Positions 35,491 through 64,000 of a stretch of DNA of 64,000 bases are shown here, in pieces. Source of the stretch: Physcia stellaris (lineage: Eukaryota; Ascomycota; Lecanoromycetes; Caliciales; Physciaceae); NCBI GenBank assembly GCA_018902385.1, contig JABSSW010000061.1, forward strand, positions 186,001 to 250,000, written 5' to 3'. Each line of letters starts with the position of its first letter. Positions within the stretch are counted from its first letter, which is position 1. The notes beneath the pieces were generated by a model. The model saw only the letters and a program-made list of their open reading frames with translations. It searched no databases and was not told the DNA's origin. Made by a program: the position numbers and the translations under genes.

Positions 35491-36326
35491 GATGCGTCAC
35501 GTGACATCACGCTCATTGATCAATTATCGATTTCTTGTTTCTAATCTCAACAATCAATTGATTTCAATTGATTTTCGATTAATAACGTTTGATTAATTAT
35601 CAATAAATTCGTTCATTCGTTTATTCGATTTGATTACATATTCAACATTGATATAATTTCACATCGTTAAACAATTAAATGAAACGAATTTTTAATTTTG
35701 ATATCGATTTCGATGTTTTTTACATTGAATATTTATGTCATTTTACGAATATAAAATGCAAATTTGTAAAACTAAATGATCAATCAAAAATCGTCAAAAA
35801 TTTAATAATTAATGCGCATTTCAATGACATTAAATGTTAAAAATTATGTAAAATAACATTTCATAAAACAACATGCAAACAATGATTTATTTATTTAGAA
35901 ATTTTACAATTATAAATTCGAATTATGTTTAATTGTTACATTCAATACGTAATTTATTTAATTATCAATATTTTTAACATTTGATTGTTTCGACAAATTA
36001 ACACGAAAAATCAAAACATCGCGAAAACATTTTTTTGTTTACATTTTTTTACAATCAACAACAATCAAAAAATTTTTTTTTTTATTCGTTCGTTCAACAC
36101 GATGACGAATACGAAACGAAAATTCAAATTGAATTTTTTCAAAAATTGAAACGCGTGATTTTCGATCGTACGAATCAAAATCACAAAATATTCGATTTGA
36201 AATTTTATCGATTTATTCAATCATATTAAATCAATAAAAAAAATTCAATTTTTAAAATTCAATTTTGACACACAACAAAGTGCAAATTTTAACGAAAAAC
36301 ATGTTCGATACAAAATAACAACATCG
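35491..36326 (+). mobile_element. Saturated AT-rich host sequence, left of element A
   Basis: Almost every C is followed by A or G. It ends at the CATCG target duplication of element A. It is probably the left part of the same decayed Copia element that continues at 42,760, but only composition supports this link. Confidence 0.45.
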
Positions 36327-36522
36327 TGTGACGAGCGTGCATCGAATTCAACATCTGACAGAACTAACATTTTTATTTTATCACATCGAGTGACAGAGTC
36401 GGAATTCGTTTATGATCAAATCTTCTACATATGTTCTGGCAGATTTACTAGATATTTGCTTTTCATTTCGATATTCTCGTGTAGTTATGTATTAGTATCA
36501 TATCAATGCATGACATTTCACA
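36327..36522 (+). repeat. Left LTR of element A
   Basis: 196 bases, starting TGTGACGAGCG and ending ATTTCACA. It differs from the right copy at 11 positions, all transitions. Confidence 0.92.
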
Positions 36523-38114
36523 TTATATCGAAGTCATTCTAATTTCTTCAAGCTGCTCGAGATACGACAGCTTATTCAATAAACAAAATCTCAAACAAAC
36601 GCGAAGATTTAAGACGTCATCAAATTTTAGACGTGCAGCGAGAACGACGTAATTCTGTTCACGTGAGATCGAAAGTCTAGACGATCTGAGTGAAAACAAC
36701 GAAGCTCTACTTCACTCAGATCATTTCTCAGGAAACAGCGATTTCGAGTGTGAACTTTCACGAAAGAATCATTTCGATATAGCGAGAACGAGATTGTTTT
36801 GCTATTGATCGAAGCGACGATTGTTTGATATTTTCGAGCGTGATACGCATTCATTTAATCGACAGATCATGTAAATGACGTTCGAAGTCACTTGTGACAG
36901 CATAATCATTAAACAATAAATCAAATTTAGATCATCAAATCAACGAATCTCTTTACATCACGAAAACATCATATCAGAAATACTCGATCAGAGATCGGAT
37001 CAGAAATCTCATTATTCGATCAAAAATTTTCGATCGAATCTTCATCTTTTCGGTCGAATTCGAATCATCTATCTTTTTCGAGAATTCTTCAGAATCAGAT
37101 CTATTTTATTAGCAACTCGATCATTCTTTTTTTGCTGCTCGATAGTTTCAATACTCAATTAGAAAGTTTCGAAACACTTCGTCGATCTCTCGACATCGAA
37201 GCTATTCTATTATTTTGAGAGTCAGATCGAAAACATACTCATCGATTTATCAATTCAGTGTCATTCTTCTATTTCGGTGATAGATTTCATATTCAATCAG
37301 AAAAATCAATATCATCTCGAGTTTAAAAACTTTCAATATTCACATTGTTTCAATATCGAGATCATTTATTTCTTTGAAGAACATTGCGAAATTATATTTG
37401 TCTTTCTCAGTGAACGATCACATTCTTTGATTTCGACGATAGTTTCAATATCGATCAGAAAAATTGTTCAAATTTTCATCAACGTTTGATATTGCAATCA
37501 TTCTTTTCACTCGAGAGTCTTTCGATATTCTATTTATTTGTTTAGCAAATCAGCATCTGTCTTCTGTATCGATGTTGAATTTAACATCAGATTTTCAAAA
37601 TTTTGCATTAAAGATTATTGCATTCGAAACATCACGAATTTTCTAGAACGCTCTGTCTCAGCATTCGATATTAATCTCATTCGAGTTGTTTGAAAATATT
37701 CAAGAATCACATTTGTTTGTCTAGCAAATCGGTTTTGATTTTCAGTTTCTGCGATGAAGTCAATATCATTTTCATTCGAAAAACTCATATCATTTCTTCA
37801 GAATTCTTTCACATTTTACACGTCGAAGAATCAGTTCGAAAACGTATCTAATTTTTTAGCAATTGATTTTTTTCTCTTTCGCGTCAACGATGACATCAGA
37901 GTCAACGTGCGAAATCTTCGAAAATTCAACAGTTTCTGTCTTAATTGCTTCATCTACTCCATCTGCTTCACAGAAACAATCGAAACAACAAAAGTTTGAA
38001 AACTCAATTTCAGATCGTTGTCAATGATGTCAATTAGCTTACGAGATTTGAAACTCACATCGTTTTCAATATTCTTCATGTGCTGCTCGAAATCAACAAG
38101 CATACGAATTCGTT

Positions 38115-41105
38115 TTGCAATTTCTTGAAGAACATGCGAACGAAATCATCGAGAAATCAACAATATCTACTTCATTTGCTTCGTCGAAACAACAGAAGCT
38201 GAACATCTCATCTGAGAATCTGAAAATAATCAAGAAAACTAAGACTAATGCTGTCAAGAATGCAAAGCGAGTCAAGTCAAAAACTTTGAAAATTCAAAAA
38301 GTTGCAAAGTCAACATCAAATTTTCAGAATATCGATATTTTCAATTCAACGCTCACATGCGAGAATCGACGATTCAGTGAAATCACGAATTTCTTGCAAC
38401 ATCTTCAACAATGTCAGCATTTGTATCGAAAGTCAAATCTGTTTACGTTGTTGCTCGTTTGTCTTTGGAATTTCGCTTTCGATATCTGATTCGATAGACA
38501 AACAATCATGAAATCAACATCACTAAGTGAGTGAATTGAAATTTTACGAGTCGATTTCGCGAATGCTTCATTCGCAAAGATCAAAACTTCGAAAATGATT
38601 TGCATGCGTTGTGATTCAAATTTCAATTTCAAAGACGAACTTCGCAATCATGTACGCAATCAACATGCGAAAAAGTCGATCAGCAGTTCGAATTTCATGA
38701 TCAATACAGTCAAATCAGCATGCGAGATCGTCGAGAAGTCAACAATCATTTGTTTGCTCGATTCGTTTGCTTTGCAAGAATCGCTTGTTCTTTTCGCAAC
38801 ATCACGAAAACATATATCGAAATCTGAGATAGTTTTCGAAACGATTATCTCATCAACGAGTTCGATTCTCTCGATCGCGACAATCAATAATGCACTACAA
38901 TCGATGAAGAACGAGTTAATTCAATGTTCTTTTGCTTCGTGAATCTTCATTTCAACGCTCGAGTCAAAAGATCAGAAAATTTTTGTTCGAAAGTTTGCAA
39001 CATCTAGTCAAATACTCGAAATTGCATCAATTTTCAAATCAATCATTTCATCAAAGTGTTTGAGTTTCTCGTCTCTTACATTTGAATACATATCAGAATC
39101 AACAAAGAATGCATTTATTCAACGTTTTCGCGATTCGTCGAAGCTGCAAGTTTTTATTGCAACATCAAAGCAAATATTTGAGTCAACATTGATCTTCGAA
39201 ACAATCACTTCATCGAAAATCTCGCATTTTTCATTCAGTGCATCAGAAACTGTATCAGAGTCGATGAAGAACACGTCAATTCAATGTTCATTTACTTCGT
39301 CGAGATCATCATCTTCTCAAACGTTCGAATCGAAATTTCAAGAAATTTCTGTTTGAAAGCTGTCAAAATTCTGCTCATCTCTTTCAATCGATACAGTCAA
39401 GTCAGTATGCGAAACCAAAAAGAAATCAACAGTCATTGAAACGTTCGCTCTGCAAGCTTTCGAAATCGCTTCGTCGAAAAATTCAAATCTTCAAATTGAA
39501 ATACTCAAGATAATATCAAAATCGATGAAGATTGAATCAAATCAATGCTCTTCTGTTTCGATGTTCTCACTTTCTCAAACGTACGATTCAGAACATCAAA
39601 ATATCTGTGTTCAGAAATTTTCAGAATTTTGCTCGTCTTTCACAAGCTTTACATTCAAGTCAGTATGTGAAAGCAAAAAAAATTCAGCTGTTATTTGCTC
39701 GTCTGTTTCGTTTATTTCGCAGAAATCATTTATTTTTCGTTCAGTTTTCAAGAAGAGTTGTTCTATTTGTCGAATCAATGTTTCTTCAATTCAAAAACAT
39801 TATCTCGAATCTTCTTCGTGCCATGAAGCACTACGTTATAGAGTGAAGCAACAATTCGCTCGTCGTGCACATCAACGAGAGCAAAAAATTCAAAAACAAG
39901 TCGAGTTGATCGAGCAAAACGCTCAAAAGCAAACAGAGATTGAAAAAGTCATTGATCAGCTCGTCAAGAACTCTCATCTCTCTATCAATGCAGTCAATTT
40001 CGTATGCAAAATCGAGAGAACAACAGAATCAACGAAGAGATCAGCAACATGTCGACGTTGCAATCAAATATTCAACTTCAATAACAAGTTTCACGAGCAT
40101 ATACGCGAACATCATGCTCGAAAAACTGTCAAAAGTTTGAATTTTCGAATCTCTACATCAGAATTCGCATACAAAATCATTGAAAAATCAGCAAACATTC
40201 GCTCGTCTATTTCGTCTGTTTCGCAGAAATCGTCTACTTTTCTCGCAACACCAAAAAGTCAAAACATTTGATCTTTCATAATTTTCGAATCAGTCATCGC
40301 ATCAACGCGTTCGTGTTTTTCTTTTGCGACACTCGAAATTGCATCAAAGCGAAAAGAGATTGCAACGTTCAAATGTTCGTTTATTTCGTCTACATCTTCT
40401 CAAGAGTCGATTCGAAAACATCAAAGATTTCACATTCAAAAGTTCTATTTGATTGCGAATGATCTGAATCGCATGTTTGTTGAAAAGTCAAAATCATTTG
40501 ATTTGCGACAACATCATAATCGTCGTTCTTCTCAACAGAGTTTCGATATTCGTCAATCTCGCTCGATCAAATTTTATCTCACTATCGATGATCTGATTCG
40601 CATGTTTCGTGAAAAGTCTAAATCATTTGATTTACATTCGTATCAAAAAAACTCTGTTTCTTCGCAACGTTTCGACGATAGTTCATTTCGTCGATCACGC
40701 TTCTTCATGCATCAATCACGAATAATCTTTTACTTCATGTCTGCAGTCAATCAGAGAGCACCGATTAGTCAGAGTCTGAAAAGCTCAAAATCGAAAACTT
40801 CGAAGCAGTACACGTTCGCGAAATCTACTCGCATTGCTTTTGCTTCTGCTTCTGTTTTGTCTGAGAAATCGACTTTTTCGTCATACAAAATGGCAGACAT
40901 CTTTTGCATCAAATCACGATCTACGTTTTCATCGTTTTTTTCATTTTCGATTTCAGATCACGTTTGTTGCATCTGCTTCGATCATTTCAGTTTTCGCAAT
41001 GATCGATTCAACTATCTACGTTTTAGTCAACGATACTCTTCGAATCGCCATTCGATGAGAGAAATGAGAGAGATGAATTTGCTTTGCGAAATGACTAAAC
41101 AATGA
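38115..41105 (+). pseudogene. Element A coding region with degenerate C2H2 motifs and repeated modules
   Basis: Broken plus-strand frames. Zinc-finger-like motifs of the form CxxC...HxxxxH recur: CMRCDSNFNFKDELRNHVRN (about 38,600), CSICRINVSSIQKHYLES (about 39,755) and CRRCNQIFNFNNKFHEHIRE (about 40,050). A Ser/Thr/Phe-rich module of roughly 80 residues (pattern FETI.SS...SMKN..IQCS) repeats near 38.8, 39.1-39.35 and 39.5 kb. DLNRMFVEKSKSFDLRQH and DLIRMFREKSKSFDLHSY form a tandem pair near 40.45-40.64 kb. The similar finger in element B (CRMCKIDFYFNNKLHRHVRI) suggests a shared retrotransposon gag-side origin. Confidence 0.55.
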
Positions 41106-42558
41106 ACTGTATCGTTTACAATCAATCAATAAACGTCGTTTATTCGTTAGATGTTTATCTTCATGACGAGTTTCATTGCTTTTTCGCGATTCTATTTCGA
41201 TATTATCGCTTTCACATTGTTTACAGTCAGAATTTACGGCGCATAGAGAGCTGAATCGTGTCAAAAACATTTTCAGAGACTATCGCTCGATCTTATTGAA
41301 CGTTGAAAAGATAGATGTCATGCAAGATATATGAATAAACAGTTGTTTGAGATCAGAATGCTACATACAAATGAGTCAACAAGATTCTCAACAAGATTCT
41401 CAATTGTTTACTAATGATCAACGGAGTTATCTATGAGACTCGCAAAAACTATCTATTTTTCAAAAGATTTATTGCATACACGTTCTATTGAATGAATTGT
41501 ACACATCGACTATCGCATGCGCTCAAATATCGATGCGTTAATCGATGTTACGCGAGTTCTATTAATACAGTGAAATTGCTCGTCTCATTGTATAATCGAT
41601 TTGATGTTGCAAAAATTCAACGTCTACATTAATGTGAAACGTCTACATTAATGTTTTCATTACATACAAAAGTTCGAGTCTTCGATTCTTTACACTCTAA
41701 ACTATCTATTAGACTTTGAAGAAGCAAACTCTCGATCGTCTGTTTACTTCATCATTTACGTCATCGTTTGCATCTTTTGCGAGTCAAATTGCTGCGAGTT
41801 GACTGTAAATCAATCTTTTTATCAATTGCAATGATTTTGATTTCAAATATCTCGCATAGATTTGCATCTGCTATCAAAATACAGATATCTTTACTCACAT
41901 CGAAAGTTTGATAGAAGCGAATCGCTATCTTGATCAGAAACTCAGAGCGTTGAGCAATCTCTTCGTCTCGATCAGTCTGCTTCAAAATTTTCGAATTTCA
42001 AATACTTTCAAATGATCTATTTTATCACTTACTCGCAGATATCATGATTCATGTCTCGCAATCAGATTTCGAATTGAAATTCGAGAACGTTTTCATCTTT
42101 TTTACTCTGTATTTGTACTATCTATTAATGAATTTCGCATGCATGTTCAAAGATCTGTCAGAGAAAACGTCTTTTCATCATACGAAATGACGCGATATTT
42201 TCGCATATTTCATGTTTTAATAATTCTTTCACATCGCGATTCAGACGCAAACTTTCTGAAAAATCTACATGCTCAAAGAAAACGATCGTTTCATCATACT
42301 ATTTGCGAAATTTCTCTGACATTCAACGATTTTCGCAAATACAAAGTCAAATAGTTTGCAAAAGTCTTTTTCGTCGTTTTCGTCGTTTTCGCCGATTTCA
42401 TTCCAAATCTCTGTACGTTTTCACGACTGTCGCATTCGTTATGAACTGTACATTTCTAGAAATCAAATCATCAAAATCACGTATTTTGTCGATCGATGAA
42501 AGAAGAAAAAGCAATGAATTATCGCTTCGAAACGAAACTGAGAAAAAACGAAAAATAA

Positions 42559-42754
42559 TGTGACGAGCGTGCATCGAATTCAACATCTAACAAAATTAAC
42601 ATTCTTATTTTATCACATCGGATGACAGAATCGAAATTCGTTTATAATCAAATTTTCTACATATGTTCTGGCAGATTTACTAGATATTTGCTTCTCATTT
42701 CGATATTCTCGTGTAGTTATGTATTAGTATCATATCAATGCATGACATTTCACA
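42559..42754 (+). repeat. Right LTR of element A
   Basis: 196 bases matching the left LTR, followed by the CATCG target copy. Confidence 0.92.
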
Positions 42755-42759
42755 CATCG

Positions 42760-43084
42760 AAATACAAAAAAAAAATTCAAAATTGAAAAAAACAAAAAAA
42801 TTCATAAAAAAAACAATCAATTATATTTACGATACAACAATGATTACAAATTTCAATTTTATTCAAATCGTTGAAATTCATTTATAAATCGTTTTTCGCG
42901 TTTTCAAAACACGTTTTGTATTCATCGATTTCGTCAAAAATTTGAAATTGAAACAACAATACAATCGCATGATCAAAAATTCATTCAATCGTCAAAATAT
43001 CGACGTTTGAATAAACGAATATTGAAAAATGTTAATTTTCGTTAAACAAACGAAAATTGTTGAAATTATCGATAATAAACGTGT
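42760..43084 (+). mobile_element. Copia gag fragment between elements A and B
   Basis: Saturated AT-rich DNA. Its last frame, KIVEIIDNKRV at the edge of element B, continues on the other side of B at 52,910 as YRDFLNVIDKIAFIF when one CGTGT copy is dropped. The pattern resembles Ty1/Copia gag. Confidence 0.6.
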
Positions 43085-43217
43085 TGCTAAAAATAGTCAA
43101 CTACTAAAAATCAATATCAATGAGTGATAAATGAATTGAATTGCTAGCTAAAATGAAAACTTTTCTTAAATACAATTAGTCAGTTTAGCGCGAGTTAACA
43201 ATCATGTGTTCGTATCA
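43085..43217 (-). repeat. 3' LTR of element B (left)
   Basis: 133 bases, plus-strand ends TGCTA and GTATCA. It differs from the other LTR at 13 positions, all C/T before a pyrimidine or G/A after a purine. Confidence 0.95.
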
Positions 43218-43453
43218 ACATTTCGCAACGAGAAAAGTTCAGCGCTCACGTTGATTTCATGTTCATTTTGTTTGTGTTTCATATTCAGCGTCTTTATTCA
43301 ACGTTTTAATTCTTCGTGATCATCTGATTAACGATCGCTTGTCTGTGTTCTCTATTCAGCGTTTTAACTTTTCGTGATCATTTTGCTAACGAGTTTGTAG
43401 TTTTCGTTGATGTATAAATTTCAGCGTCAGCGTTTTGCTCATTCATATTTTAC

Positions 43454-44512
43454 TCAATATTTTTTGAAGACATCGTATTCGATGTTAGTGTTCGATCGAA
43501 AACGCTTTTTGCGAACGACGACGTAATAAACGTTTAGAAAATTGCGATCAACATCTTTGACGATTGAATCGATATGTTGAATTATCAGTTTGATTAAATC
43601 AAAACGTTTGTTGATCAATGTGATTTTCATTTTCGTTTTTTGATTTCGACAGATTCGATACGTTTCGATAAACTCGTCGATTGCGACTTTTTCAGTCGTT
43701 GACATTTGACATTCATCGAAATTTGTCAAAAGAGTCTCGATGCGTTGAAATAACTCAAAAATCTGATTGTCGAAATTTCGTGCGAAATTCAAAAGAATTT
43801 CGACATTTTTTAGTTTTTCGTTGAGCAAAAAGTCATGATATCGAAATTTGCTCAACTGAATATCAATGAGCAATTCGTCGTCATTTTCATCTTTTTTCGA
43901 TTTAAACGTTTTGATGAAATCAATTTTGATACTTTTGTCAATTGCTTTGTCAATGTCGATTGATTTCATGTTTTTTTCGAATATTATTTTTTTGTTGATT
44001 TGCGCGTTATCAGCGTTCTCGTCGTTGTTCAACTTTTTCGATTTTTTCGATTTTTTTTGATTGTTTGTCGATTTTTTTATCAGAATCTCGTTTTCAAAAA
44101 CTTTCTCATTCATCAATTTGTTTTGACGAACTAATAGTTTTGTTTTTTTGCGTCGTTTGATTGCACTGTTTGCAAATTTTTTGATTTTTCTCTTTTTCTG
44201 AATTTTGTTGAGTTTGCTGATTGACATTTCTTCATCGTCGTCGTCGTTTTTGCTAACGACGATTAAGAATATCGATTTTGTTTTGTTGTTATTGACGATT
44301 GAGAATGTTTGCTTTGTTTTGTTGCTACTGACGATAGCAAGAACAATATTGAGATTGACAAAACTGATTGAGTCGAAATCAAAAATGTTATCAAAATTTA
44401 TGATTAATGCATCGTTGAATTCAACAACGATAAAATCATTGTTATTTTGTATTGCGATCGACAATCTTGCTATGATATCACGTTGATTTTTCGATAGATT
44501 ATCATATGTCAT
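43454..44512 (-). CDS. Extra ORF downstream of integrase in element B
   Basis: Uninterrupted 352-codon frame between integrase and the 3' LTR. The N-terminus is MTYDNLSKNQRDIIARLSIA. The middle is strongly basic and Lys/Asn-rich (IQKKRKIKKFANSAIKRRKK). The C-terminal half is helical (KLKNVEILLNFARNFDNQIF, then TTEKVAIDEFIETYRICRNQ) and coiled-coil-like. No known domain. It contains no Gly, Pro or Trp, as expected after RpG-to-RpA change. The survival of the frame is explained by the mutation type and does not imply current function. Accessory 3' ORFs are known in some fungal Gypsy elements; this one is not identified further. Confidence 0.6.
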   Translation of the reverse strand: MTYDNLSKNQRDIIARLSIAIQNNNDFIVVEFNDALIINFDNIFDFDSISFVNLNIVLAIVSSNKTKQTFSIVNNNKTKSIFLIVVSKNDDDDEEMSISKLNKIQKKRKIKKFANSAIKRRKKTKLLVRQNKLMNEKVFENEILIKKSTNNQKKSKKSKKLNNDENADNAQINKKIIFEKNMKSIDIDKAIDKSIKIDFIKTFKSKKDENDDELLIDIQLSKFRYHDFLLNEKLKNVEILLNFARNFDNQIFELFQRIETLLTNFDECQMSTTEKVAIDEFIETYRICRNQKTKMKITLINKRFDLIKLIIQHIDSIVKDVDRNFLNVYYVVVRKKRFRSNTNIEYDVFKKY

Positions 44513-45637
44513 TTCGTTTTCATTTTTTCACAAAATATATGAATCGTCGCTTTGAATAAACGTTTGACGATAATATCACGTTTCTGCGTCGTCATTGTAT
44601 TTGACGATTTTTTCTCTATGCGAACGATTATCATGAATTTCTTCTTTGCTAGCAAAGTCAGTCGAAAAACGTTGTTTTTTGACTTTGTTGAAAATGTCGT
44701 ATCTGTTTTTCACGATTCAAAAAAAATCGTCGAAAAGTACTATTCTTTTTGACAAAAAATTCAATCAGACTGAGTTTTCATTGAATGAGCGCACATTATA
44801 AAAATCGTATTCGAAAAATGTTTGATGTACAAATCGATCGTGAAACATCTTTGCAATTTCGAAAACGACTGACGCGTTTCAATTAAAACTAACTAAGAAA
44901 TGCATTTGACGATGTTGAAAACTGAATGTAATCATGTTGAATAACGATAAATCAATTTTAGCGACGAGCAAAACGAAAATAAAAAATAAAAATGATAATT
45001 CGAAATGAGAATTCAAAATGAAAATTCAAAATGAAAATTTGCGATATTCGACTAACGACGCGACAATGTCTATTAAACGAAACGCTAAAATATTGAGCGA
45101 GACTGTTTAATAATATCTAAATCACGATGATGATAAAATTTACTCGTCGACGAAATCAACGTACGCATTTACTCAAAATGCGTTCATTTTTTTGAATCGA
45201 TCTTTTTTGCGCTTTTGTTGACTTTCGACGACAATTTTGCTGAATTTATCTCGTTTGCGTTTTGAATTTTTCGAAATCGATGATATAAAATCGATAACGC
45301 GAGTCGTGTTTGAAACTGATGTAATTGATTGAAAATTGATTTTTTCGTAATTTTTCATCAAAATCATGAAATTCGCTAAAGCTGACAATGATTTTTATTC
45401 ATCGAATTCAAATTCGTATTCTAATCATCTTATTAAATATTTTATCATTTTTGTTCTTTCGTATTTTCGATTTCTTTTTTTGATTAGCTTTTTCATCTCG
45501 TACGATTTTTCTCAGTCGATATTAGACGTCTTTTTCATTTCGACGACGTCGAGATGACTAGAACGAGATCGATTATAAAGATCGACGTTCTTTGATGTCG
45601 ATTTCAGTTGCATAATGAAAATAACTGAATGAATTTG

Positions 45638-46075
45638 TCATTTTGACGACAAATTCAATTCGTATGCGAGTTTATTTATTCGACGTTTCACTAAAAACGA
45701 TTCGATTTTTTGATTAGAAAGTTTGACATTGATTTGCGACGAGAAAAAGTATTTATGATGAAAACGAAAATATGTCTTTTCGCCGAGATTGAACTTTAGA
45801 GATTGATGTTTTTTGTCGTACAAAATTTTAGATTTCGCGACGACGAATGCGATAACATCGTTTGCTTTTTTTTGAAAAACAAAGCGATTTTTCTCGAATT
45901 TCGATTTTGCAATTGACGTAATCGTGTTCGATGATTTTCGTAAATCAAATGACACGATCACAGCGATCATAATTTCTCTGAATTGAAAATCAATGACGAT
46001 TTGATTTGAAAATTTTTCGATAATTGCATGAACACTGTTGTTCAAACTAAATTGCAAAATTGACAACGCGTTCAT
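45638..46075 (-). pseudogene. Integrase C-terminal region of element B
   Basis: Fragment with KILYDKKHQSLKFNLGEKTY, then FRFHHKYFF and KRRINKLAYEL. This matches the usual Gypsy integrase tail (YD..H..l.l..Gd...lrlh.gY, then L.YeL). Substitutions are mostly at Gly and Pro positions. Confidence 0.8.
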
Positions 46076-46330
46076 TCAACTCATGTCGAAATTGACGATA
46101 ATAAAAAATCGTAGCGCAATTTTCATTGTTTGATTTGTGCGTTTCGACTGATCGTTCGTTTGTGAATGATAAATCGTGCTCATGAATAAATTAGTGTCTA
46201 AACGTTTGAACATGACTCGTCAAAAATCGAAGCAAAATTTTCGATTTCGATCGAAAATGATTTCTGCGAAAATATTTCAATTTGCTAGCAACAATCGATC
46301 GATCAAAGCGTTTGCTCATTCGTCGATTGA

Positions 46331-46948
46331 TCACGTGTTCTTTTTTTGAATCAATAATGTTTTTCGAGCGAATTTGTCGATTACGAACATGAAACAATCG
46401 AATTCATGATTTTGTTTTGATAAAGCAAATACAAAATCAATAAATATTGTATGATAAAACATGTTGAAAATATTTATCGATGACAATTTTTCATAGAGTT
46501 TGTGTCGCTTAGTTTGATTCAACTGACACGAAAAACAATGACGAATGTAATTGATTAGACGTCTGAAAAGTCGTCGTATGTAGACTGTTTTTAATCGATC
46601 GTAAACACGATGATGATCGACATGAAAATTGTCGTCATGCGCTAATTTGAGCACGTCGTGTATACTATTTTCTGATATACATAATCGAAATTGATCGTCT
46701 TTTACATAATAAATGAAATCGTCGATAAATTGAAAATCGATTTCAAAAATCAAATACGTTGAATTCGAAACAGATTTGAAAGTTGTAAATTTCGTCGAAA
46801 TAACGATTTTCGTGATTCTATTCTCGCTAAATGATATCGATGCGAAAATGATCGCGAACGATTTTGCATTTTGCATTTTCTCGAAACTCGTCGATTTTTG
46901 ATTTGATAATCGATTTTTAACGTCGTCGCTGACGAGACGCTTTAGCAA
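46331..46948 (-). pseudogene. Integrase zinc-binding and core start of element B
   Basis: Contains the H-H-C-C zinc-binding pattern (HDDNFHVDHHRVYDRLKT, then YIRHCFSCQLNQTKRHKLYE) and the start of the catalytic core with its first Asp (HTIFIDFVFALSKQNHEFDC). The upstream break at about 46,962 is a TGA in NVN-stop-KIIL, where Gypsy elements have Trp. Confidence 0.85.
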
Positions 46949-46963
46949 ATCGAGAATGATTTT

Positions 46964-47353
46964 TCAATTAACGTTCTTTTGATATTCGATGATGAGTTTC
47001 TTGCGAAAATTCGATGACATTTCGATTAGCGTAACTCGTATCGAGTTTTCGTTGAAATTCGATTCATCGATGTGAAAATGATAGATTTTCAAATCAAAAT
47101 TATCAATTTTTGTATTTGAGTTGAAATGACGTACGATTGAAAGTCGACTCAAAACGTTTGATACGATATTAAACTTTTCAACTTTATGAAAAACTCGAAG
47201 ACGAAATTGAGAAAGATAAATGCTGACTTTTATTAATTTGAAATTCAATTTATTCACACTGTTGAATGTCAATTTAATTTGATTGACGATAGTCGAATTT
47301 ACGACGTGATCGATGTAAATGACAACTGAATGTTGATTGCTCATGATCATCAA
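46964..47353 (-). pseudogene. RNase H C-terminal part of element B
   Basis: NFKLIKVSIYLSQFRLRVFH and KVEKFNIVSNVLSRL match the end of Gypsy RNase H and its linker (…n..aDaLSR). The Asp of the DALSR motif is Asn here. Confidence 0.85.
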
Positions 47354-47404
47354 ACGAAATTTACGAACAAATCATATCAATGACGTCATTTTCAATTCTG
47401 TGAG

Positions 47405-48144
47405 TCAATAACGAGACTCAATTGACGATAGTACTTTGTTTAGAAACATAATGAATTCGACGTTCGTTCGCTTGAACGAAATGTTGATAATCATCATTTT
47501 CTTCTCGTTTTTAAATTTAACGTGATAAATCATAATGTCAAAATCGCGCTTTTTGCTGACGTTCACGTCGATATACAGAACTCTAATTTTGTCGAAATGA
47601 ATCAAAAACGTTGATCGACTAAAGACGCTCTGTAATTGATTAAAAACGTCTATTTCGATCGACGACGAGTCATCTACTGAAATACGTCGACTATGTTGTT
47701 GACGAAATCGTTCTTTGTTAAATGCGTAACGTAACAAACGAATTTTACGTTTCTGTAATGACAAAATTTTTTGAACATAATATGATACGTATTGACGCAA
47801 TCATTCGATTTTGTCTAGATAAATTTTCAGTTGTTTAAAAATCTGAAAAAGATTAAACTAAAAATAGTTTCAAATTTATTCGTCGCTGTAGTCAATTTCA
47901 AACTGTCGACTCGTTGATCGAGCAACGATATGATAAAATAATCAAAAAAAATTTTGCTAGTCTTGAGAACTATGTTCATGCGCTTGAAAAGAACGAAAAT
48001 TTGATTCAAATGTCGTAAATACTTTTTTAACGAATTCGAGAATATTACTATGTCGTTTACATACGCTCTAACAAAATGTCGATATTTTCGTAAAATCGAA
48101 TCGATTTGTCGCTGAACGTAAACAAAAAAATTGCAATAATTCAT
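47405..48144 (-). pseudogene. Reverse transcriptase palm/thumb and RNase H start of element B
   Basis: RT palm motif: AYVNDIVIFSNSLKKYLRHL, with the usual YVDD changed to YVND, then TSKIFFDYFIISLLDQRVDS. The connection and RNase H start follows: FLIHFDKIRVLYIDVNVSKK and LSSIESRY, then a TGA where the family has Trp (YWxTELE). Stops also separate the palm from the upstream RT fingers, which are hard to read. The loss of the catalytic Asp makes it inactive. Confidence 0.87.
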
Positions 48145-48864
48145 GACAATTACGTTTCATTGTTCGTTGTCTCGATGATTGATCACAGTCAATTTGTGTC
48201 TATTCATCATTCGTACTAATCATTGATGAAAGAAATCGACACAATTCATCATCGATATGTACGAGCAATCGATAACTGTTGACAGAATGTTTGATTGTAA
48301 CGACATGAAATAAACATCGAACATCGAAATTTTATTTAATTCACGAATATCTATTACAACGCGATTTTTGCGTTGTTCGTTGATCGTACGTCACATCACG
48401 AAAACTGAGTAATTGTACGAAATAGATTGACTAATTCACGTCATTTTGTTTTTTTTATGTAGTCGATCGAATTTTTTGTCGACTACTTTTTTATTTTTCG
48501 AACTAAACGAATACATTTTATTGATTTTCGACTTAACGTCAAACAAAATAAATATAGACATTCATTGTTTTTCGAGCACATTGATCGTGTCGTCGATATC
48601 ACGTCAAATTTCAAAATAGATTTTCGCTATCGTGAAAAATCGATTGTAAACAGACGAATCGTCAAAAACGATGATTTCGTTTGACATGACGATTTTCAAC
48701 GAAATAGAAAATGACACAGTAGTTTCGAATATCGATACATCAAATATTGAGCTAGTTGACGAGTTGATTTGCATAAAGATAATAATCGAAAAAATGTTAG
48801 ATGTAGTGAAATCAGCGAAGACGTCGACTAGATTCATCATGATCACATTACGTAGCGTTTTCGT

Positions 48865-49907: not shown

Positions 49908-49997
49908 ATTGTAATGAAAGATTGAGTCGTTCAGAAAAACAAATTCAAATTGATTTTGATTTCTCTCGATGACAACAAGACGTTTCGCGATCGTGTG

Positions 49998-51410: not shown

Positions 51411-52771
51411 CTCGCGTGTAGTAGTCGAATTGCTATCGATAAACAGATTGTTGTTGACTTGTTGACTATCGATAATAAAGCGATTGTTTGAATCGATAAT
51501 AGATGAATAGTTTGAGACACGAGAAATTTTAACGTGAACTTGATTTCGTTCGATTACGAAAATATCGTTTTCGTATCGAAATCGATTTTCTATACGTGAA
51601 ACGATAATTTGAGATACAACTGTTCTACGATTCGAAATGATTGAAATATCATTAGATGTCGAATTGTCGTTAAATGCTTCGATCTTTTGTCTAAATTGAA
51701 AATTTTGATAGACAGATGTTTGTCTGTACTTTTCGATTTTTTTAAAGAATCGTGAAGCGATCGCTTTAAAAATAGCAATGTTGATAATTCATTCTGACGA
51801 ATATTCTAGAAATTCGATTGACGTTACTTTGATTTCTCGAATTGTTGACGATTTTGTTGATCGAAAATTGATGTTTACAAAAATTATCATTGTTTGAATG
51901 ATTTTTTTTGATAAAGTTTTTGTCAACGAATGATTTGCTAATTCAAATTCATGAAAATGTCACGCAATGACGACGATCTTTTTGCTCATCGATTGAGTTG
52001 AAATACGCGAAATCGAGATATCAAACGAAATCAATTTGATTGTTTAGCTAAAAGTGCTTGTCATGTAATGACAAACTGATATACTACAATGATTTGTCAA
52101 CTAGAGCAAATATTGCGTCAAACGATGACAACAAAATGCAATGAAATGAACGTAGCAAAAATAAATAAACAAAATGAGCGAAAAACTGTTTGAAACAAAT
52201 GACGAAACTTCTCGAAAAAACAGACGTTAAAAAGAACAAACGCTAAAATAAAAATATTCGAGCGACAAGTTCGTTTGACGTGATTCGTCATTTAACAGAT
52301 TCGAAAAAAGTTGACAAAATGAGAAATCGTAGACTAAATAAAGATCGATTGCTGATTTGAAAACGAGATTGTTGATGTAAAACTGTCTGAATTGAAATTT
52401 GCGAAAGACTTTTGAGAGACAATTTTGTTGTTTAAATTGTTTTGTAAAGTCGAAACGACGAAAACTCTTTCTGTTTCAAACTTTTCGACAACGAGATATT
52501 GAAACTGATAGACGCGCACGTTATGATTCGAGCGTTCTGTCAATTCATTCGATTGTGAATGACGTGTCGAATTCATGAATAAATTGATTTTTCACGACAA
52601 TTAAATCGACGATCTAGAATTGACAGTTGACAATGATTTGTCAAATTGATGAAATTGTTGAAACAATGCGTTTGACTGTTGACAAATTCGATTTGATGTA
52701 AAACGACGTATTCGATCGACAATCAATGATGTCAAATACGTAATACAGATCGAATCTATGATGTTATCATT

Positions 52772-52904
52772 TGCTAGAAATAGTCAACTATTAAGAATCA
52801 GTATCAATGAGTGATAAATGAATTGAATTGCTAATTAAAATGAAAATTTTTCTTAAATACAACTAGTCAATTTAGCGCGAACTAGCAATCATGTGCTCGT
52901 ATCA
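52772..52904 (-). repeat. 5' LTR of element B (right)
   Basis: 133 bases with the same ends as the left copy, followed by the second CGTGT target copy. Confidence 0.95.
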
Positions 52905-52909: not shown

Positions 52910-55560
52910 GTATCGTGATTTTTTAAACGTAATCGACAAAATTGCATTTATTTTCGTTGAAATACATTTATTTCAATTAAACATTGTAACGAATTATAAA
53001 ACACAACTTTTCATTTTTATTGAAATTTTTTGACATTATATGCGCATAAAAGAAATTCGAAAAAAAAAACGATATTCAATTCGACATTCGCAATTGACGA
53101 AAACAAAAATACAAACAATCGAAATTTTTTTGACATTTCGTCATTTCGAAATCAGAATCAATTTCGAAATTTTTTTTATTGCGAAAAAAAACATTTTTAC
53201 GACGATTGTTTTTACATTCACGAAAACATACGTTCAAATAATTTCAAATTGAAATCAAAAATCGTGACTAAAATAAACGAAACGAAAAAAAATTCAAAGA
53301 AAAAAAAAACAAAAAAAAACATCAAACGAATTGACAAAAAACGTTAAAAAAAACGATAACAAAAATACAAAAATCGAAATAGAATTTTTCGTCGTCATTC
53401 ACGTTAATGTTATAAAATCGTTTACAAACGATTCGTTTTCGTTAAATTATTTTTTTCGTTGATCGTGAATTATGAATTACGATTTCGACATTCACGTGAT
53501 TAACAACACAATGAAACAACGTTTTCAAAAAAACGAAATTGTACAAACGAATCGATGATTATGTTCGATATAAAATAATTTTTTATTTTGACATATAATC
53601 GAATGCGTATCAACGTCAATACATTCACAAAAAAAAATTAATAAAATTTTTAAACGTCAATTACGTATTAAATTTCATGATAAATATCGTTGCGAACAAC
53701 ATTTTTGCAAACAAAAAATTATATTTCGATACAATACATGATTATTTGCATAAAAACGACAAATTAATCGTTTTCGTGTTTAAAATAAATACATATTACG
53801 TTTTCGAAAATAATAAATTTAAAAAAATGAACATATTCGTTGTTATCGTACGACAAAAATCTATTTTAAAATGACATCAATTTTTCGTTTATGCGAATAA
53901 TGACGCAATACAACATTTACAAAAAATCGTTGAAAAAATAAAATTTATTAACAAAAACAAAATGTCGTTGATTAACAAATGCGAAAAATGTACATTTTTC
54001 AAAATACATCGAATCGTATTCAAATTTTTTGAAAAATCAAAAATTTTAAACAAATCGTTTTATCGCATTATTTACAATTTCATTAATATGACAACGACAT
54101 TGAATAAATACAAATGAATATTGCACGTAACATATTTCGAAACAAATTTTCACATAATATATACGCACGAAAACAAAAAACAAATCACGAAAATTTTTAT
54201 TCGAATTATTTACATCATCGAAATCAAATACAACGACAAAATAATATTTGTACGTTTTGACGACGAACGCGTATTAAACATTGTTTGAAATAATTATTGT
54301 GTATTCAAAAACATTATACATAAATTTTCGATCGTTGATATTTCAACACAAAACGATTAAAATGAACAATTAAATGATATATTGTTGATTAAATCACGAA
54401 CAATAAAATTCGAAACAAATTTATTTGTTTATTTATAATCGTGAATTAACGAAATCGTTGATTACATCATGAATCGTACATTTTTCAAAAAACATGAATA
54501 AAAAATATCGTTCGAAATGATTATCGACAAAAAATCGAATTTTGTTCACATCGTTCAATATAAAACAAAAACATATTTTTTGAATAAAAATATTTCGAAA
54601 AAGAAAAAAATGAAAATCAAAACATACATCGATTTTTTTGTAAATTATAACAACATCAATATTTTTTTGATTTGAATTTTTAATCAACGAAAAATTATAC
54701 GTACACGTGATGTCACATTCAACGAAAATTCATGTTATCGTTTTAATGAAATAAATTTAATTCAATTCGTTAACGAATTTTTTTTTGATTAACGATACGT
54801 TTGACATATCGCAAAACGATTTCACGAAAATAATAAACATCGAATCAAACAACGACGAACATTTATGAAAATTAATATTTACAAAATTTATTATCGATCG
54901 CGATGCAAAGAAATTTTACAAACAAATAATTGAAAACGATTTTAAACGAAAATATTCATTTTCATTTGTTTCATTTTCGTCAAAAAATAAAAACATTTCG
55001 AATTCGATTGATTTTTCGTCATTTGTCGTTACAAAAATTTCTCGTCATTCGTCGTTACAAAAACAATAAAAAAACTTTTTTCGTTTGTATCGTCGTTGAA
55101 AAAAAAAATCGAAACATTGAACGAAAACAATTATTGACGAAATTAACATTCAATTTGAAAAAATTATTCGTATTCGTAAATCAAATTCGTTTCGAAATTT
55201 TAATTATTACATTGTTTTGAAAAACGCATTCGCAAAAAAAATACGTTTATTTTACGAATCATTTATGATTTCATTGACGATAAAAAAAAAATCGCATCGT
55301 GACAATTTTTTCGTCAAATCAAAATTTTATTATTAAATGTTCAAACATATTGAAATCGTCGATTTTTTACGAATTATTGACGTGAAAATCAAAACATTAC
55401 AATCAAAACAAATTTGAAATTTTTTTTCATGAAATCATGTCAAACAAACAAAAAAAACTTTTATATTTATTACATGAATATTCAAATACAAATTCGATAA
55501 CGAAAAATATTTAATAAAATACAAAATTCGATTGTGTATTCGAAAAAATTTTCAACAAAT
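52910..55560 (+). mobile_element. Decayed Ty1/Copia element, right part
   Basis: Continues the gag frame broken by element B. Near 53,176-53,225 a zinc-knuckle-like FYCEKKHFYDDCFYIH is visible, with the Gly and one Cys position changed, then basic Lys/Asn-rich sequence. Between about 53.7 and 54.7 kb are Copia protease/integrase-like frames (DYLHKNDKLIVF, NDKIIFVRFDDERVLNIV). Beyond 55.5 kb nothing can be read. Saturated mutation; no LTR could be found. Confidence 0.55.
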
Positions 55561-56247
55561 CGAACAAAATGTTTACGCAATTACATTAATTATTAAAATT
55601 TTTCGAACATTAATAATTATAATTACAATTTTCGATTTGAACATTTGTCAATATAACGTAATCAACGCATTCGCAAATAACGATATTTATTAAAAAAATT
55701 ATGAATGATTATCATTTTATTGTTTTGAATTTCGTTGTTTTGTAACAAGACACACGTTTACAAAATGTAACAACGTTTTATGTTAAAGTTGAAATTATCA
55801 ATTATCACAATTTTCGTCATCATTTTTATTTGATATTATGTTTTGTTATTATCATCACGTTATTGTGCGAAACATATTGACAATTGACGATTATACGTTG
55901 AAACGTTGATGATTTTGCGTTCGAATATACACATAATTACGTTCAAATCGCAAAAATCGAACGTTTCGTTCAAACAATTTTCAGTTGATTTTTGATGAAA
56001 TCAACATTTTTTTATCATATTTTATCATATGAAATTTTTATCATATGAAATAAAATCTTTCTATAATAAAATATTCTGTAAATTCGCTTGACGCGAATGA
56101 TCGATCGAGAAAAATTTTGATCAATTTTGTGTTCGTATTTTTTAAATTCGATAATTTTCATTAATTGAGAATTCAAATTTTCAATGCGATAAATCATCAA
56201 ACTTTTTTTCGTTCAATCATCGAAATTCATTTTGAATACGAAAATTT

Positions 56248-57082: not shown

Positions 57083-57450
57083 ATTTTTACAATTTGTCAA
57101 CGTTTTTGACAATTTTCATGTCATTTTTCATATTAATTTGTATTGCAAAGTATTTTCACAATTGTTCAACGACAATATCAACAACAAAAATGCATGATGC
57201 GTTTGCAATAATTTCATGTTTTGACAATTGTTCAAAACATTGTGTCACAAAGTACTGTGTCAAAACATGAAATAATTGTAATTGTCAATGAGAAACATAC
57301 GCAATATTGAGCAATATTTTCGATTCAATTGTTCAATTTGTATGATAAATTGTATGACAATCAGACAATTGATTTGAAAATTCTTTCAAAATTTTCGTCG
57401 TATCTCAAAATTCTTAGATTGAATACGAAATAGATTGTTTCGAAATAAAA

Positions 57451-58900
57451 TTTATTCGAAAGTCGTGCATTTCACGCTAGAAAATAATTCTTGTACTAGA
57501 TTAACATACATGCAAAATGAGAGCACAAAAAATGTGCGAATGTCAAAATATTAGTTTCAACAAAAACGCATTAATTCTTTTTTCGTCAAATTATATCAAT
57601 TGAATTCTGATTGCAACACATTTGCGAAAATTGTATTTTCAACATTTTTTCACAGCAATCGTTTGTGTTTTCTGCTCAATATTTTAACGAATTCAATCTG
57701 AAATTTTCGTGCAAATTTTTTCAACGATGCGTGTTTTGAAATTTTCGTGCAAACTTTTTCAAAGCGACGAATTTTGAAACTTTTTCAACGATGTAAATTT
57801 TGATTTTTTCAACGATGTATTGTTTGAAACTTTCGAGCAAATTTTCCAAATGACGTAAATTTTGTAAAACTAGATTATACATCGATGCGAAGATTGCAGA
57901 AACGAACGAATCGAAATTCGATAATTTATTGACTTCAAATATGACGTAAAATCGATTTGTAAAAATTGCGATCGAATGATTGAAAACGTTTTGAATGTGT
58001 TTTCATGCGATGAAGCATCGATACGAGATTTGATATTTGAATTTGAATTGACGATACATCATGAAACAAGTATTTTGTGTTTGAATAATGCGATATTGAC
58101 GAGAGTGCGAGTCACATCATGATCTGATAACATCATTGTGAATTTCAGAGTTCTCAGATACTTTTTGCGACATCAATGATTCAATATCTATGCAATTTGA
58201 TTGTAGAAAGTTCATAAAATATGTCAAATGATCGAAAAATCGATAAGAAAAACAATGCATCGAATGCGCGACATGCATTGCGAACATACATCGATGCAAA
58301 AAGTACAAAATCGAACTTTTCTGATCTGACTAAGATTTGTCAGAGAATCAAATCGATTAGTATGCGAAAAGATCAGATATCTTCAGTTCTTTTTGATCGA
58401 ATTTTTGTTCTTTTTGATCGAGTTTCTGATTTGCAAGATCGAGTATGTAATAATTGCATAGTACGTTTTCTCGAAACGATACTATGTGATTTCAACGAGT
58501 ATGTAATGACTTCATACAGTACGTTTTCTCGAAGCGATACTATCTGAACGTGAGCATCTTGATCAGTACATTTTCTCGAAGTTGTATTGTTTAGTAGATT
58601 GCTTCTTCTCTTCTAACAATTGTACAGTAAATCAGTAAGTTTTTTCGAGATTGTATTGTCATCACTGTATTTTTCTTTTTCTCGTATTTATCGAGCGACT
58701 GAAGTCTCAAAAATAGTAAAAAAAAAAGACGATTAATCAGTCGTGTTAGATCAAAACGAAACAACAAAGATAAGTTTCTACCAATTTGTGAAACAATAGA
58801 CAAATAAACAAAACATACAACAACTTTTAAGTTTCTTCAGATCGATCAACGATTACTAAAGAGAGCGAGCGAACATAACAAACAGACAACATGTTAATTT
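57451..58900. other. Less mutated AT-rich DNA with dispersed short repeats
   Basis: No recognisable gene. A motif of the type ACGTTTTCTCGAAGCGATA recurs near 58,462, 58,519, 58,563 and 58,633 with variations, and GTTCTTTTTGATCGA repeats at about 58,385-58,420. Confidence 0.5.
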
Positions 58901-59800: not shown

Positions 59801-62340
59801 CAATGAACTATTTCTACTTCAACAAATTATGAACTCGAACAATTCGCTTTTTATCAATCAAATATTATTCGTTTCGTTATTTTCATTTTTTTAATAATTT
59901 TTGCATCGTCGTGCGCAATCTTTACGAAATCGAATACATTTTTTGAAAAAAATGAATCAAACGAATTTTTTCGACTTTCAACGTTGAATTTATTGTTTTT
60001 TTATTGATTCATTATTTTGTTGTTTTTATTACATGAATTGATTCGCGTATACATATCGTTTTCTAATTTTTCGACGAATTTCGATGATTCTCGTTGTCAA
60101 ATCAACGATTTACATTTTTTTTATCATTTCAATATCGTGCGCAAAACATTCATTTGATCGATATTATGATTCATTGCGATATTCGAATCATTACAACATT
60201 TTGCTTTATTTACGTGTCATCAAAATATCTCATCATGATGTTTTATGTTTGAATTATTGTTCAAACGATCAATAACATCAATCGTCATTCAAAATTTCGA
60301 TTCGAATTTTACACGCAAATTTTGAACATTTGCGCACATTTTTTTATTAAATTGAATGCGTTATTTGCGTTAAATTTTTCAAATCGAGTTTTCATATTCG
60401 AATCGACGTTATTTTCGATAAAATTTCATTGTTGAAAATTATGTTTTTACATTAAATTTCATTTTCTTTATTAGTTTATTGTTAAATTACATTTGATTCG
60501 AATGTTTGAATATTCGTTTATTTTGCTCGTTCAAACGTTTGATCGTTTGTTGATTTTTTCGTATCGCATAAATGAAAATTTGAACGAGATTTTGAATTCG
60601 AAAATCGTGTCATTGATTCGTTTTTTACAAAACAAATAATTGATCTCGTTACTTTTTTCTTTTTTATCAATTTTTTGTATTTCTCATTGTTCGTTAAATT
60701 ATTTTCAATTTATTCTCGATACACATATCAATACATTTTTTTGTTTATTTTATCTCATTGTCTGTTTCGGAATAAATCATACGATCGTCATTTCGAAAAA
60801 ATCAAACAATTGACGCATTTGTTTTCGTCGTCGCTACACAATTGTTTATAAATTTTGACAATAAAAAAATGCATGAAACGAAACAAACACGATAATCATT
60901 TCATATCATTTTTTTAATAAACGTATTCAAGTCAAAATGAAAAATTATTCGATCAAATTTTTGATTTACATCAAATCATTGTATCGTTTCGAAAATTACT
61001 ATTTTTGAAAATTTGAAATCAAAAATCATTTTCAGTTTTTAAATGTTGAATGAACTATCACGAAATTCATACGAATTCGTTTTATTAAAAATTTCATGAC
61101 AAATGAAATCAAAGCGAAAAATTATACGAACGAACATGTCGTCGTCAAAACGTCTGATTTGAAAATCGTTCAAAATCGTCATGATTTTGAAATCATCAAA
61201 ACACATAATTTTTTATTTAATTTCGTGTATGTTTCACATCGTTTCATTATTTTGAATCAAAACATTTTGTTGAAACGTTGAATCGTTATTGCATTTCAAT
61301 TCAAAAAAAAAAACGTTCGTTTTCGTCATGAATATCATTTTTACATTTCTAAATCTCAATTCAGAATCGAATGACGTTGAATCGTTCGTCGTTGTCGTGA
61401 AATTTATTCAAAATGATTTCATCACTATGAATGTCGAAATTTTCATTATTATATTCGTCATTTGTCAAAACATTTTGTTCGTCAAAATGAAACACGTTCA
61501 TTTTTTTTTCGTTCAATAACAACGCAACAATTGAATCGAATTCAATACAAATGTCAATAAATTTTGTTTCGAATTTCGTCATTATGCAAAAATCGTTCAA
61601 TTTTTCAAATTCGTCGTCATGATCACACAAATTTCGAAATCGTCAAACAAGCGAACACGTACGCACGATGATCAAACGTTCATTTTCACGTCAAAATTTT
61701 TCAAATATGTGAAATCATCGTGATGTTTTTTTTTTAAATGCGTTGAAACAAATCAAATTCATCATGATTTCAAACGATGTTTTTGACAAAATTTCAACAT
61801 TGCATACAAAAATTGACTAAACAAAAACATGTTCGATTACGTTAAAAACGAAACGAATTGAAAATCACAATCGATCGTCAATTGAAAACGTGTTTTATCG
61901 ATTGCTCGAACGATCAACAACATGTTGTGATACGTTAATTCGAAAACAAATATTCACGTTTGCAAAAACAAACATTTTATTCAATCATTTCGTTTTCACG
62001 AATTTATCGTTTTAATCGTCGATAAAATTCGTTTTTCGATTTCAAATCTGAACATGATACAATTTTTTATCGTTTTATCAAATGAAAAAATCATTGAAAT
62101 TTTCATTTTATCGATGTATTACATGCTCGATTCGTTTGTCAATTTTTTTTCGATATTTGTTCTCGAAAAACAAAATATTTATTGAAACACATTCGATCAC
62201 GTGTTTAGAAATCGTGATATTTTTGTTGTTTGAGCGTTTTTGAACGAAAATGATTTTTATGCAATTATGTTGCAAAACAGTCAAATGATTGTTTTGATCA
62301 CTATTTCGTTTATTTCGCTATTTACATAACATAAACGACT
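59801..62340. other. Saturated AT-rich DNA, probably 5' part of a Copia element
   Basis: Very few CpY or RpG dinucleotides. No readable domains, but it precedes Copia integrase on the same strand and probably holds its gag. Confidence 0.4.
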
Positions 62341-64000
62341 GAAACATTTTAATTATTTTGTTTTTCGAATATATTTTAAATTTTTGCAAATCAATTATGT
62401 TGACGACGTTTCGAATAATCATTGCGATATATGCAAACAAATCAAAATTAAACGAAAATTCAATCGAAACGAAAACATCAAACGAATTTCAAAATTTTTT
62501 CACATCATACATATTGATTTTGTATTTATCTCGATATTCGATTACGAGCAAAAAACGTGTTATATCACGTTCATTTGTAATTGATGTCGAAAAATTGATG
62601 TCTATACAATCAAAAACAAAACAGAATGAATAATTCATTTTTCGATTTACATTTTCATAATTGAAAATCAATATAATGTGAAAATCAAAATCGTCAAAAT
62701 TAATTATGATTTCGAATTTCGCAACATCAAATTCGATGCATTTTTGATTTTCAAAAACATTTTATTCGAATTCGATTTTATCGACGTTCAAAACGTAAAT
62801 GAAATCGTTGAAACTCATTAACGTACGATTACAATCATGATTCAAACGACGTTATTTGACGACGACATATTTGATTTTTTGTGATCGAACGTTATTTTGA
62901 TCATGACATATATCAAAAAACGTCGTTTTTCGATTTTCTTTGACGACATGAATTTTATCGAAAAATTTATCGACATTGTTTCAAATTTTTCTAATTTACA
63001 TTCATTTGAAATTATCGTTTACGTCGTCAAAAATTCGAAACACAAAAATCATTTCGAATTTCGCGATGACAAAAACATTTTCATTGAATACGACGACGAC
63101 ACGATTTATCGTGTATAAATTTCATTTTTTAACGACAACGAAATACGCAAAATCAAAAACGTCGATTTTTACGATGTCGCAATTTTCAAACAATACACGA
63201 TTTTTAGCGAAATTATTGCATTTGAACAAAAAAGATATTCTATTATTTCAAACACAATTTCAGACGTTATTGTTTCGAAAATTATCACATTCAAAAATAA
63301 ATCGATCATTTTTCGCAAAATCAAATTCGCATTAGAAATTTCACAAAACATATTTTCAATCATTTTTTATAAATTTATCATCATGCGTTCAAATCGTCAA
63401 ATCAAACAAATCGATTTTTTTATGAATTCATTTGTTTATTTGATTATATCAAACAATACGACAAAAATATTTAACGTTGTTATGACAAAATTATTGACAA
63501 ATTGAAAGCATTTTTTCGACGATCTCGTCGTTTTTTTGAATTGTATCGACGAAAATTTTATTTTCGTCGAACGCATTTTCGAATGATACAATGATTCATG
63601 CGTTGTCAATTCAATTTCATTGTTAATTGATTTTATCGAAATTCAAAACGTCACAAATTTTGAAAATTTCGTTGTTTTCAACAATATGAATGACGACGAA
63701 CTCAACACATAATTACAAATCATAAATAGTTCAGATTCGTCAAACTGAATGAACGTCGTCGAAAACGAAATTCAATTTTTGAACAAAAACAATACATGAA
63801 TTTTGATAAATCGTACATTCGATGATCGAAAATTTTTAAACGATAAATGAATTTTCAAAATCAAACGAAATATCGAAAAAAAAAATAATTCGTTACAAAG
63901 TTCGATGAATTGTTAAAAATTATTTGCAACAATACATTGATTTCGAACAAATTTTTGTTTTCGTGATCAAATCAATGGTTTTTCGAGTTTTGTTCGTCAT
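62341..64000 (+). mobile_element. Second Ty1/Copia element, integrase region, runs off the window
   Basis: The plus-strand frame near 62,384-62,580 reads CDICKQIKIKRKFNR and then IHIDFVFISIFDYEQKTCYI, the Copia integrase zinc-binding end and core start. Near 62,900-63,118 it reads SNLHSFEIIVYVVKNSKHKN and NIFIEYDDDTIYRV, typical of the Copia integrase/RT junction (FG...YV, then GY..D..YRV with Gly changed to Glu). Saturated mutation; the element continues past 64,000. Confidence 0.75.

Follow-up and report, generated by a model that had tools for sequence, protein, structure and literature searches.

A repeat-associated C-to-T mutation signature in Physcia stellaris that takes CpC before CpT and nearly spares CpA

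The DNA analysed here, which we call the window, is a stretch of 64,000 nucleotides from the ascomycete Physcia stellaris (assembly GCA_018902385.1, contig JABSSW010000061.1, positions 186,001 to 250,000 of the forward strand), and our subject is a long AT-rich block within it in which cytosines standing before another pyrimidine have been lost to C-to-T change on both strands, in a manner that recalls the repeat-induced point mutation (RIP) of other fungi. The window itself comes from contig C61 of a 44 Mb genome in 147 contigs; other contigs and loci are cited by C and L numbers. Transposable elements and other repeats lie nested in the block, and their copies were searched for with the sequence up to 58,900, and its left boundary lies at about 35,450-35,500. 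The features, in window coordinates and including elements with long terminal repeats (LTRs), are as follows.

1-10,800, no strand: ordinary GC-rich DNA with normal CC/CT odds, an internal control
11,006-13,436, no strand: core of a second mutated island, probably a DNA transposon, flanked by inverted repeats of 52 bases (92%) at 11,006-11,057 and 13,385-13,436
13,437-35,490, no strand: ordinary GC-rich gene-bearing DNA with normal CC/CT odds (dropping in the last few hundred bases), an internal control
35,491-64,000, no strand: AT-rich block, largely repeats, nearly devoid of CC/GG and with CT/AG reduced on both strands, continuing to the window end
36,320-42,754, no strand: LTR-type element, less mutated at CpT, terminal repeats 36,320-36,522 and 42,552-42,754
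43,084-52,904, minus strand: LTR-type element, terminal repeats 43,084-43,217 and 52,771-52,904, integrase zinc-binding domain at 46,331-46,963
53,200-55,687, plus strand: piece of a Copia-type element, heavily mutated, with copies elsewhere in the genome
56,050-56,966, no strand: repeat, about 0.9 kb long, present in the genome in many copies
57,502-58,900, no strand: repeat, about 1.35 kb long, present in the genome in many copies

Within 35,491-64,000 there are 28 CC+GG dinucleotides where base composition predicts 1,266, and 1,467 CT+AG where it predicts 2,983; the dinucleotide odds are CC 0.02, CT 0.49, CA 1.22 and CG 2.65, as against 0.96, 1.03, 1.12 and 0.89 for 1-35,490 taken as a whole. 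An earlier note, made from the letters alone, had described the block as lacking CC, CT, GG and AG while keeping CA and CG. For CC and GG, and for the retention of CA and CG, this description holds, but CT and AG are depleted rather than absent everywhere, since their number is only halved. Measured kilobase by kilobase, their odds range between 0.02 (at 54-55 kb) and 0.94 (at 39-40 kb), unlike CC/GG, which is near-missing along the whole block and has its longest gap, of 5,629 bases, beginning at about 51,303. The same note's statement that every C in 54,001-54,180 precedes A or G and every G follows C or T was exact on recount: of the 26 C, 17 stand before A and 9 before G; of the 14 G, 9 come after C and 5 after T; and there are no CpC or CpT (CpY) steps or their complements (RpG), where 20,000 mononucleotide shuffles averaged 19.2 such steps and never fell below 8. 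The same interval gave no signal of single-strand structure (z 0.59).

The direction and context of the change were read from alignments of the Copia-type family, whose piece at 53,200-55,687 is 82-91% identical to mutated copies and fragments elsewhere in the genome and 69% identical to three GC-normal ones. The GC-normal copies have a GC content of about 0.49 and CC odds of 0.89-0.90, and the one that was read carries an open frame of over 3 kb with the Pfam domain RVT_2. Taking as reference the sites at which these three copies agree, and scoring seven mutated copies (that of the window and six others), C-to-T change was found at 1761/1822 CpC, 1611/2003 CpT, 232/2197 CpA and 83/2051 CpG sites, while 162/8804 A/T sites had changed. 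CpC exceeded CpT, and both far exceeded CpA and CpG, in all seven copies; CpA stood above CpG in six of them. The copies form a graded series, with 91-99% of CpC, 51-93% of CpT and 2.6-27% of CpA changed per copy, and A/T-site change between 0.6 and 4.2%. The least mutated copy, L071, has fractions of 0.91 for CpC, 0.51 for CpT, 0.026 for CpA and 0.027 for CpG, whereas L068 has 0.99, 0.93, 0.11 and 0.04. The copy in the window shows the highest change of the seven both at CpA (0.27) and at A/T sites (54/1283).

The other families give the same order. In all ten further pairs tabulated, from two LTR families, CpC exceeded CpT and CpT exceeded CpA and CpG, with CpA above CpG in seven. For the family of 36,320-42,754, in which the reference copy is itself lightly mutated, L058 to L041 gave CpC 80/116, CpT 140/345, CpA 3/423 and CpG 6/313; L054 to L047 gave 82/124, 161/431, 2/549 and 6/435; and L053 to L046 gave 126/136, 411/470, 30/538 and 15/449. 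These pairs are not all independent because some of the loci overlap (L054 with L058, L041 with L047). For the family of 43,084-52,904, L011 to L006 gave CpC 28/29, CpT 183/238, CpA 29/583 and CpG 26/696, and in L005 to L006 just one CpC could still be scored. Weaker pairs had lower CpY shares among their mismatches (45% for L006/L007 and 20% for L068/L069, with 29% for L065/L066 and 39% for L066/L067 in the GC-normal control pairs); the share is low in a heavily mutated pair because few CpY sites remain to differ. A displaced ribosomal DNA (rDNA) copy or pseudogene comprising the 18S end, 5.8S and 28S start (L074:1-3154, contig C41) carries the same mutations, at 19/23 CpC, 13/29 CpT, 0/32 CpA and 2/28 CpG sites when strongly conserved positions in six alignment blocks are scored against a pan-eukaryote Rfam consensus. 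This mutated copy is the sole rDNA match among those listed (39 of 2,644 candidates scored), and no normal copy is among them. Here CpA lies below CpG, so that the order of these two varies among copies, pairs and rDNA.

The earlier note had proposed alignment as its own test, asking whether most changes would fall at CpA, and they do not, in the seven Copia-type copies or in the other families. Its reading of a RIP-like process with a CpC/CpT context is thus supported. Its wording that the change is restricted to CpY is too strong, in that CpC is used ahead of CpT and that 27% of the CpA sites have changed in the copy that has diverged most.

In the time of their origin the changes follow the insertion of the elements, since LTR partners differ mainly by CpY transitions: the terminal repeats of 36,320-42,754 differ at 11/196 aligned places (7 CpT, 2 CpC and 2 CpA), and all 13 differences between those of 43,084-52,904 are CpT transitions. 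Few other changes accompany them. Of 314 mismatches between L058 and L041 over 2,994 sites, 289 are CpY transitions and 8 are transversions; the corresponding figures for L054/L047 are 338 of 366 and 11. These numbers bear on the possibility that repeats are merely methylated at CpC and CpT, by a DIM-2-type or other enzyme and without mutagenic action, and that 5-methylcytosine (5mC) then undergoes ordinary slow deamination. The genome does hold a DIM-2-like gene, and the window copy is highest in A/T-site change and CpA change alike, as slow decay would have it. However, 80/116 CpC and 140/345 CpT sites have changed in L058/L041 beside those 8 transversions, L068 has lost 260/262 CpC sites with 18/1272 A/T sites changed, and across the Copia-type series the change does not scale with neutral divergence, CpC being 91-99% changed at 0.6-4.2% A/T-site change. 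Spontaneous deamination alone would require a very large rate excess, and we consider this explanation unlikely. The alignments thus establish the direction and context of the mutation, its presence in several families and on both strands, and its burst-like speed.

The 3′ base is decisive for the choice of target and the 5′ base has little effect: CpT sites of L071 had changed at 17/33 after A, 48/77 after C, 32/70 after G and 37/80 after T. Ultraviolet (UV) dipyrimidine damage, which would deplete TC before purines too, was rejected in view of this small influence of the −1 base and of the enrichment of TC (odds 1.49). A general bias, of mutation or of repair, in AT-rich DNA or heterochromatin that is not directed at repeats could draw on the breadth of the pattern: of the 51 loci off C61 whose GC content is below 0.35, 49 show CC odds under 0.25 together with CA odds above 1, all loci having been drawn in as repeat matches. 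Yet GC-normal copies of the same Copia-type element exist, and in L082 the GC content jumps from about 0.26 to 0.46-0.52 close to where one of them begins, next to mutated DNA; together with the rarity of other changes and the normal composition of the gene-bearing DNA of the window, this makes plain bias, UV damage included, extremely unlikely as the explanation. Two AT-rich loci at the start of contig C11, L055 and L060, depart from the rest of the AT-rich set: their CC odds are 0.59 and 0.75, and their composition, near the contig end, is mixed.

A profile search of the genome with PF00145, a loose first look that weak or distant members could escape, gave four matches at three genes. The earlier note had proposed looking for RID and Dim-2 genes, and three intact-looking C5 cytosine methyltransferase genes answer to that description, the names RID, Masc1 and DIM-2 being provisional, given on characteristic motifs and relative similarity.

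C3: DIM-2-like C5 methyltransferase, open frame of 1,118 amino acids, motifs PCQ and ENV
C5, locus L072: class-I (RID/Masc1-like) C5 methyltransferase, 934 amino acids with inferred introns, motifs PPCQ and EQT
C6, locus L001: class-I (RID/Masc1-like) C5 methyltransferase, 508 amino acids with inferred introns, motifs PPCQ and EET

All three retain their catalytic motifs and have normal CC/CT odds. The C5 and C6 proteins are 40% identical over 305 residues and each is less like the C3 protein (28% and 26%), so that there are two distinct class-I genes in one genome, the shorter being without the long N-terminal part.

The reading we prefer, to which we would give a probability of roughly 0.78, is a RIP-like process that targets repeated DNA for C-to-T hypermutation on both strands, in which the target C would in practice need a 3′ pyrimidine and CpC would be used ahead of CpT, with a methyltransferase as its probable driver. 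The specificity may come from a RID/Masc1-class C5 methyltransferase, encoded by one of the two class-I genes, through its target-recognition part; the action would fall in the sexual cycle, as in Neurospora, and deamination of C or 5mC would be left unrepaired. On balance we lean towards a further step, namely that a RID/Masc1-class mutator has switched its recognition of the 3′ base from purine to pyrimidine, giving CpC-first RIP. The deaminase or methyltransferase machinery of which the earlier note spoke is something we infer from sequence, as is the choice of the methyltransferase that may act on repeats. A methyltransferase is favoured because enzymes of that class read bases 3′ of the target, whereas APOBEC-type deaminases read the 5′ side. 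A DNA cytosine deaminase of the APOBEC/AID kind, or another non-methyltransferase mutator acting on repeats, would also give C-to-T change on both strands in a sharp context, and the genome has eight matches to the broad family PF00383, as expected of housekeeping enzymes, the search having been made at the level of that family and not of narrower ones. The 5′-base preference of APOBEC-type editing is not seen here, however, the 5′ base being minor and the 3′ base deciding, and a 3′-base preference is a trait of RIP and of C5 methyltransferases; we regard a deaminase as very unlikely.

Several observations weigh against the RIP-like process driven by a methyltransferase. An always-active RIP should not spare three near-identical Copia-type copies, and yet L065 (C7), L066 (C42) and L067 (C8) are unmutated and 94-96% identical over at least the 2.8 kb compared. 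Each sits some 31-60 kb inside one end of its contig (flanks L078-L082), one of them adjoins mutated DNA, on its upstream side only, and they are not brand new, since the terminal repeats of two of them differ at 8/147 and 7/130 places, partly by transversions. Either the process acts rarely, as with a rare sexual cycle, or these copies entered from elsewhere. Secondly, all repeat families tested are mutated and the gene-bearing DNA of the window is normal, but DNA at 10,801-11,005, just beyond the inverted repeats of the second island, is partly depleted, so that confinement to repeats may not be strict. Thirdly, strand tracts are unclear. Agreement between same-strand neighbours exceeded shuffles on one strand in L058/L041 (157/262, shuffles 132.4, sd 7.9) and L054/L047 (182/317, shuffles 158.1, sd 9.0) and did not on the other (101/196, 104.1, sd 6.6; 123/235, 129.3, sd 6.7), fell under shuffles on one strand in L058/L052 (181/261, 191.7, sd 4.2) and was flat in L053/L046; in L058/L041 the strands differed at CpT (89/182 versus 51/162, Fisher p 0.0014) and CpC stood at 58/81 versus 22/35 (p 0.39). 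With the clustering tests mixed, clear strand tracts are not supported. Finally, the presence of class-I genes does not prove that they take part, since there are fungi, such as Ophiostoma, that show RIP-like mutation but in which a RID gene was looked for in vain (PMC4350166).

The second island, at about 10,800-13,400 and outside the coordinates of the earlier note, has no CC in 11,201-12,200 or in 12,801-13,000. Its inner stretch, 12,201-12,800, shows a partial depletion only (25, 17 and 11 CC per 200 bases), matches a repeat elsewhere, contains a perfect 86-base inverted repeat (12,269-12,354 and 12,380-12,465) and is perhaps a later insert. The genome search with 10,801-12,200 found a relative on C30 (71-73%), along with two short matches, of which one is the island's own other end.

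A context of this kind damages coding frames mostly by missense, with stops chiefly at Trp codons: in five copies new stops arose at 70/73 TGG sites as against 7/188 CAA, CAG or CGA sites, and the window copy has six more stops, from other codons. It also escapes the standard indices, for which the usual RIP thresholds are TpA/ApT of at least 0.89 and (CpA+TpG)/(ApC+GpT) of at most 1.03. The block has values of 0.45 and 1.31 and fails both. The indices fail on loci L005-L064 too: when 60 loci, some of them overlapping, were cut into 428 tiles of 500 bases, none of the 371 with GC below 0.35 was index-positive and one of the 57 above 0.35 was. Since the indices fail on AT-rich tiles, surveys using them would call such repeats RIP-free; the CpA preference is widely used for RIP detection, and in surveys built on CpA-based indices a genome can pass for untouched although it is heavily mutated.

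Two genes in the ordinary DNA of the window may be recorded here. A single open frame at 25,878-28,340 fuses a GFO/IDH/MocA oxidoreductase with a DegT/DnrJ sugar aminotransferase, its top NCBIfam matches being bacterial sugar aminotransferases under the cut-off, and a vanadium chloroperoxidase gene at 18,366-20,453 resembles solved vanadium chloroperoxidase structures.

Mutation of CpG, in the context TpCpG, is the mark of Microbotryum in the wording of the earlier note. In Ascobolus, a RID/Masc1-class enzyme acts on repeats in methylation induced premeiotically (MIP). MIP methylates without mutating (PMC4352252), whereas here bases are mutated. CpG signatures are described for Tuber and Microbotryum repeats (PMC4352252), which resemble our case as repeat-directed C-to-T change away from CpA and differ in that CpG is among the least mutated contexts here (83/2051). 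CpT as a target is already known. Botrytis, Sclerotinia and Magnaporthe show CpA and CpT signatures, every genome that shows them having one or more RID/Masc1 genes, and CpT is listed as predominant for M. oryzae and for a single strain of B. cinerea (PMC4352252); Anisogramma anomala shows CpA and CpT with two rid orthologues and a dim-2 homologue (PMC10998396); these share with P. stellaris the targeting of CpT and genes of the RID/Masc1 class, but CpT stands there beside CpA and no CpC signature is listed in the passages compared. By alignment, CpT was the dominant form in RIP-capable fungi (PMC7882544), and in short rDNA repeats of S. nodorum (Stagonospora) CpT change rose without CpA, although the authors doubted RIP (PMC2621366). 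Monilinia comes nearer in having CpC among its altered dinucleotides, as CpC-to-TpT double mutations, but beside the classical CpA-to-TpA RIP expected and found there (PMC8959702). Pyricularia 5mC prefers CpA over CpC and CpT (PMC7979813). CpC first with CpA nearly spared is not described in the literature compared, and our search, which did not cover the broad earlier survey of Clutterbuck (2011), found no report of CpC-first repeat mutation.

With RIP in general the process in P. stellaris shares C-to-T change on both strands with few other changes. It departs from typical RIP in the CpA preference that a kingdom survey found RIP-like defences to share (PMC12543289), with CpA at 232/2197 and CpC at 1761/1822 here; that preference is typical rather than universal. 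Like Neurospora RIP it works on both strands of repeats, in a genome with RID-like and DIM-2-like genes, but the N. crassa order is CpA>CpT>CpG>CpC (PMC5496416), and even in Neurospora Tad1 copies, where CpT changes outnumber CpA by alignment (PMC2621366), CpC is not first. Experimental RIP in T. reesei begins with CpA and CpG and leaves CpC to the end (PMC5496416), the opposite end for CpC, yet it resembles our case in departing from the Neurospora order, which shows that species can differ in their preference. A genome in which CpC goes first and CpA is nearly spared suggests that the preference of RIP can be rewired, and offers a route to what in the enzyme sets it; if one of the two class-I genes is responsible, it would be a natural specificity variant for locating the residues with which RID chooses its target.

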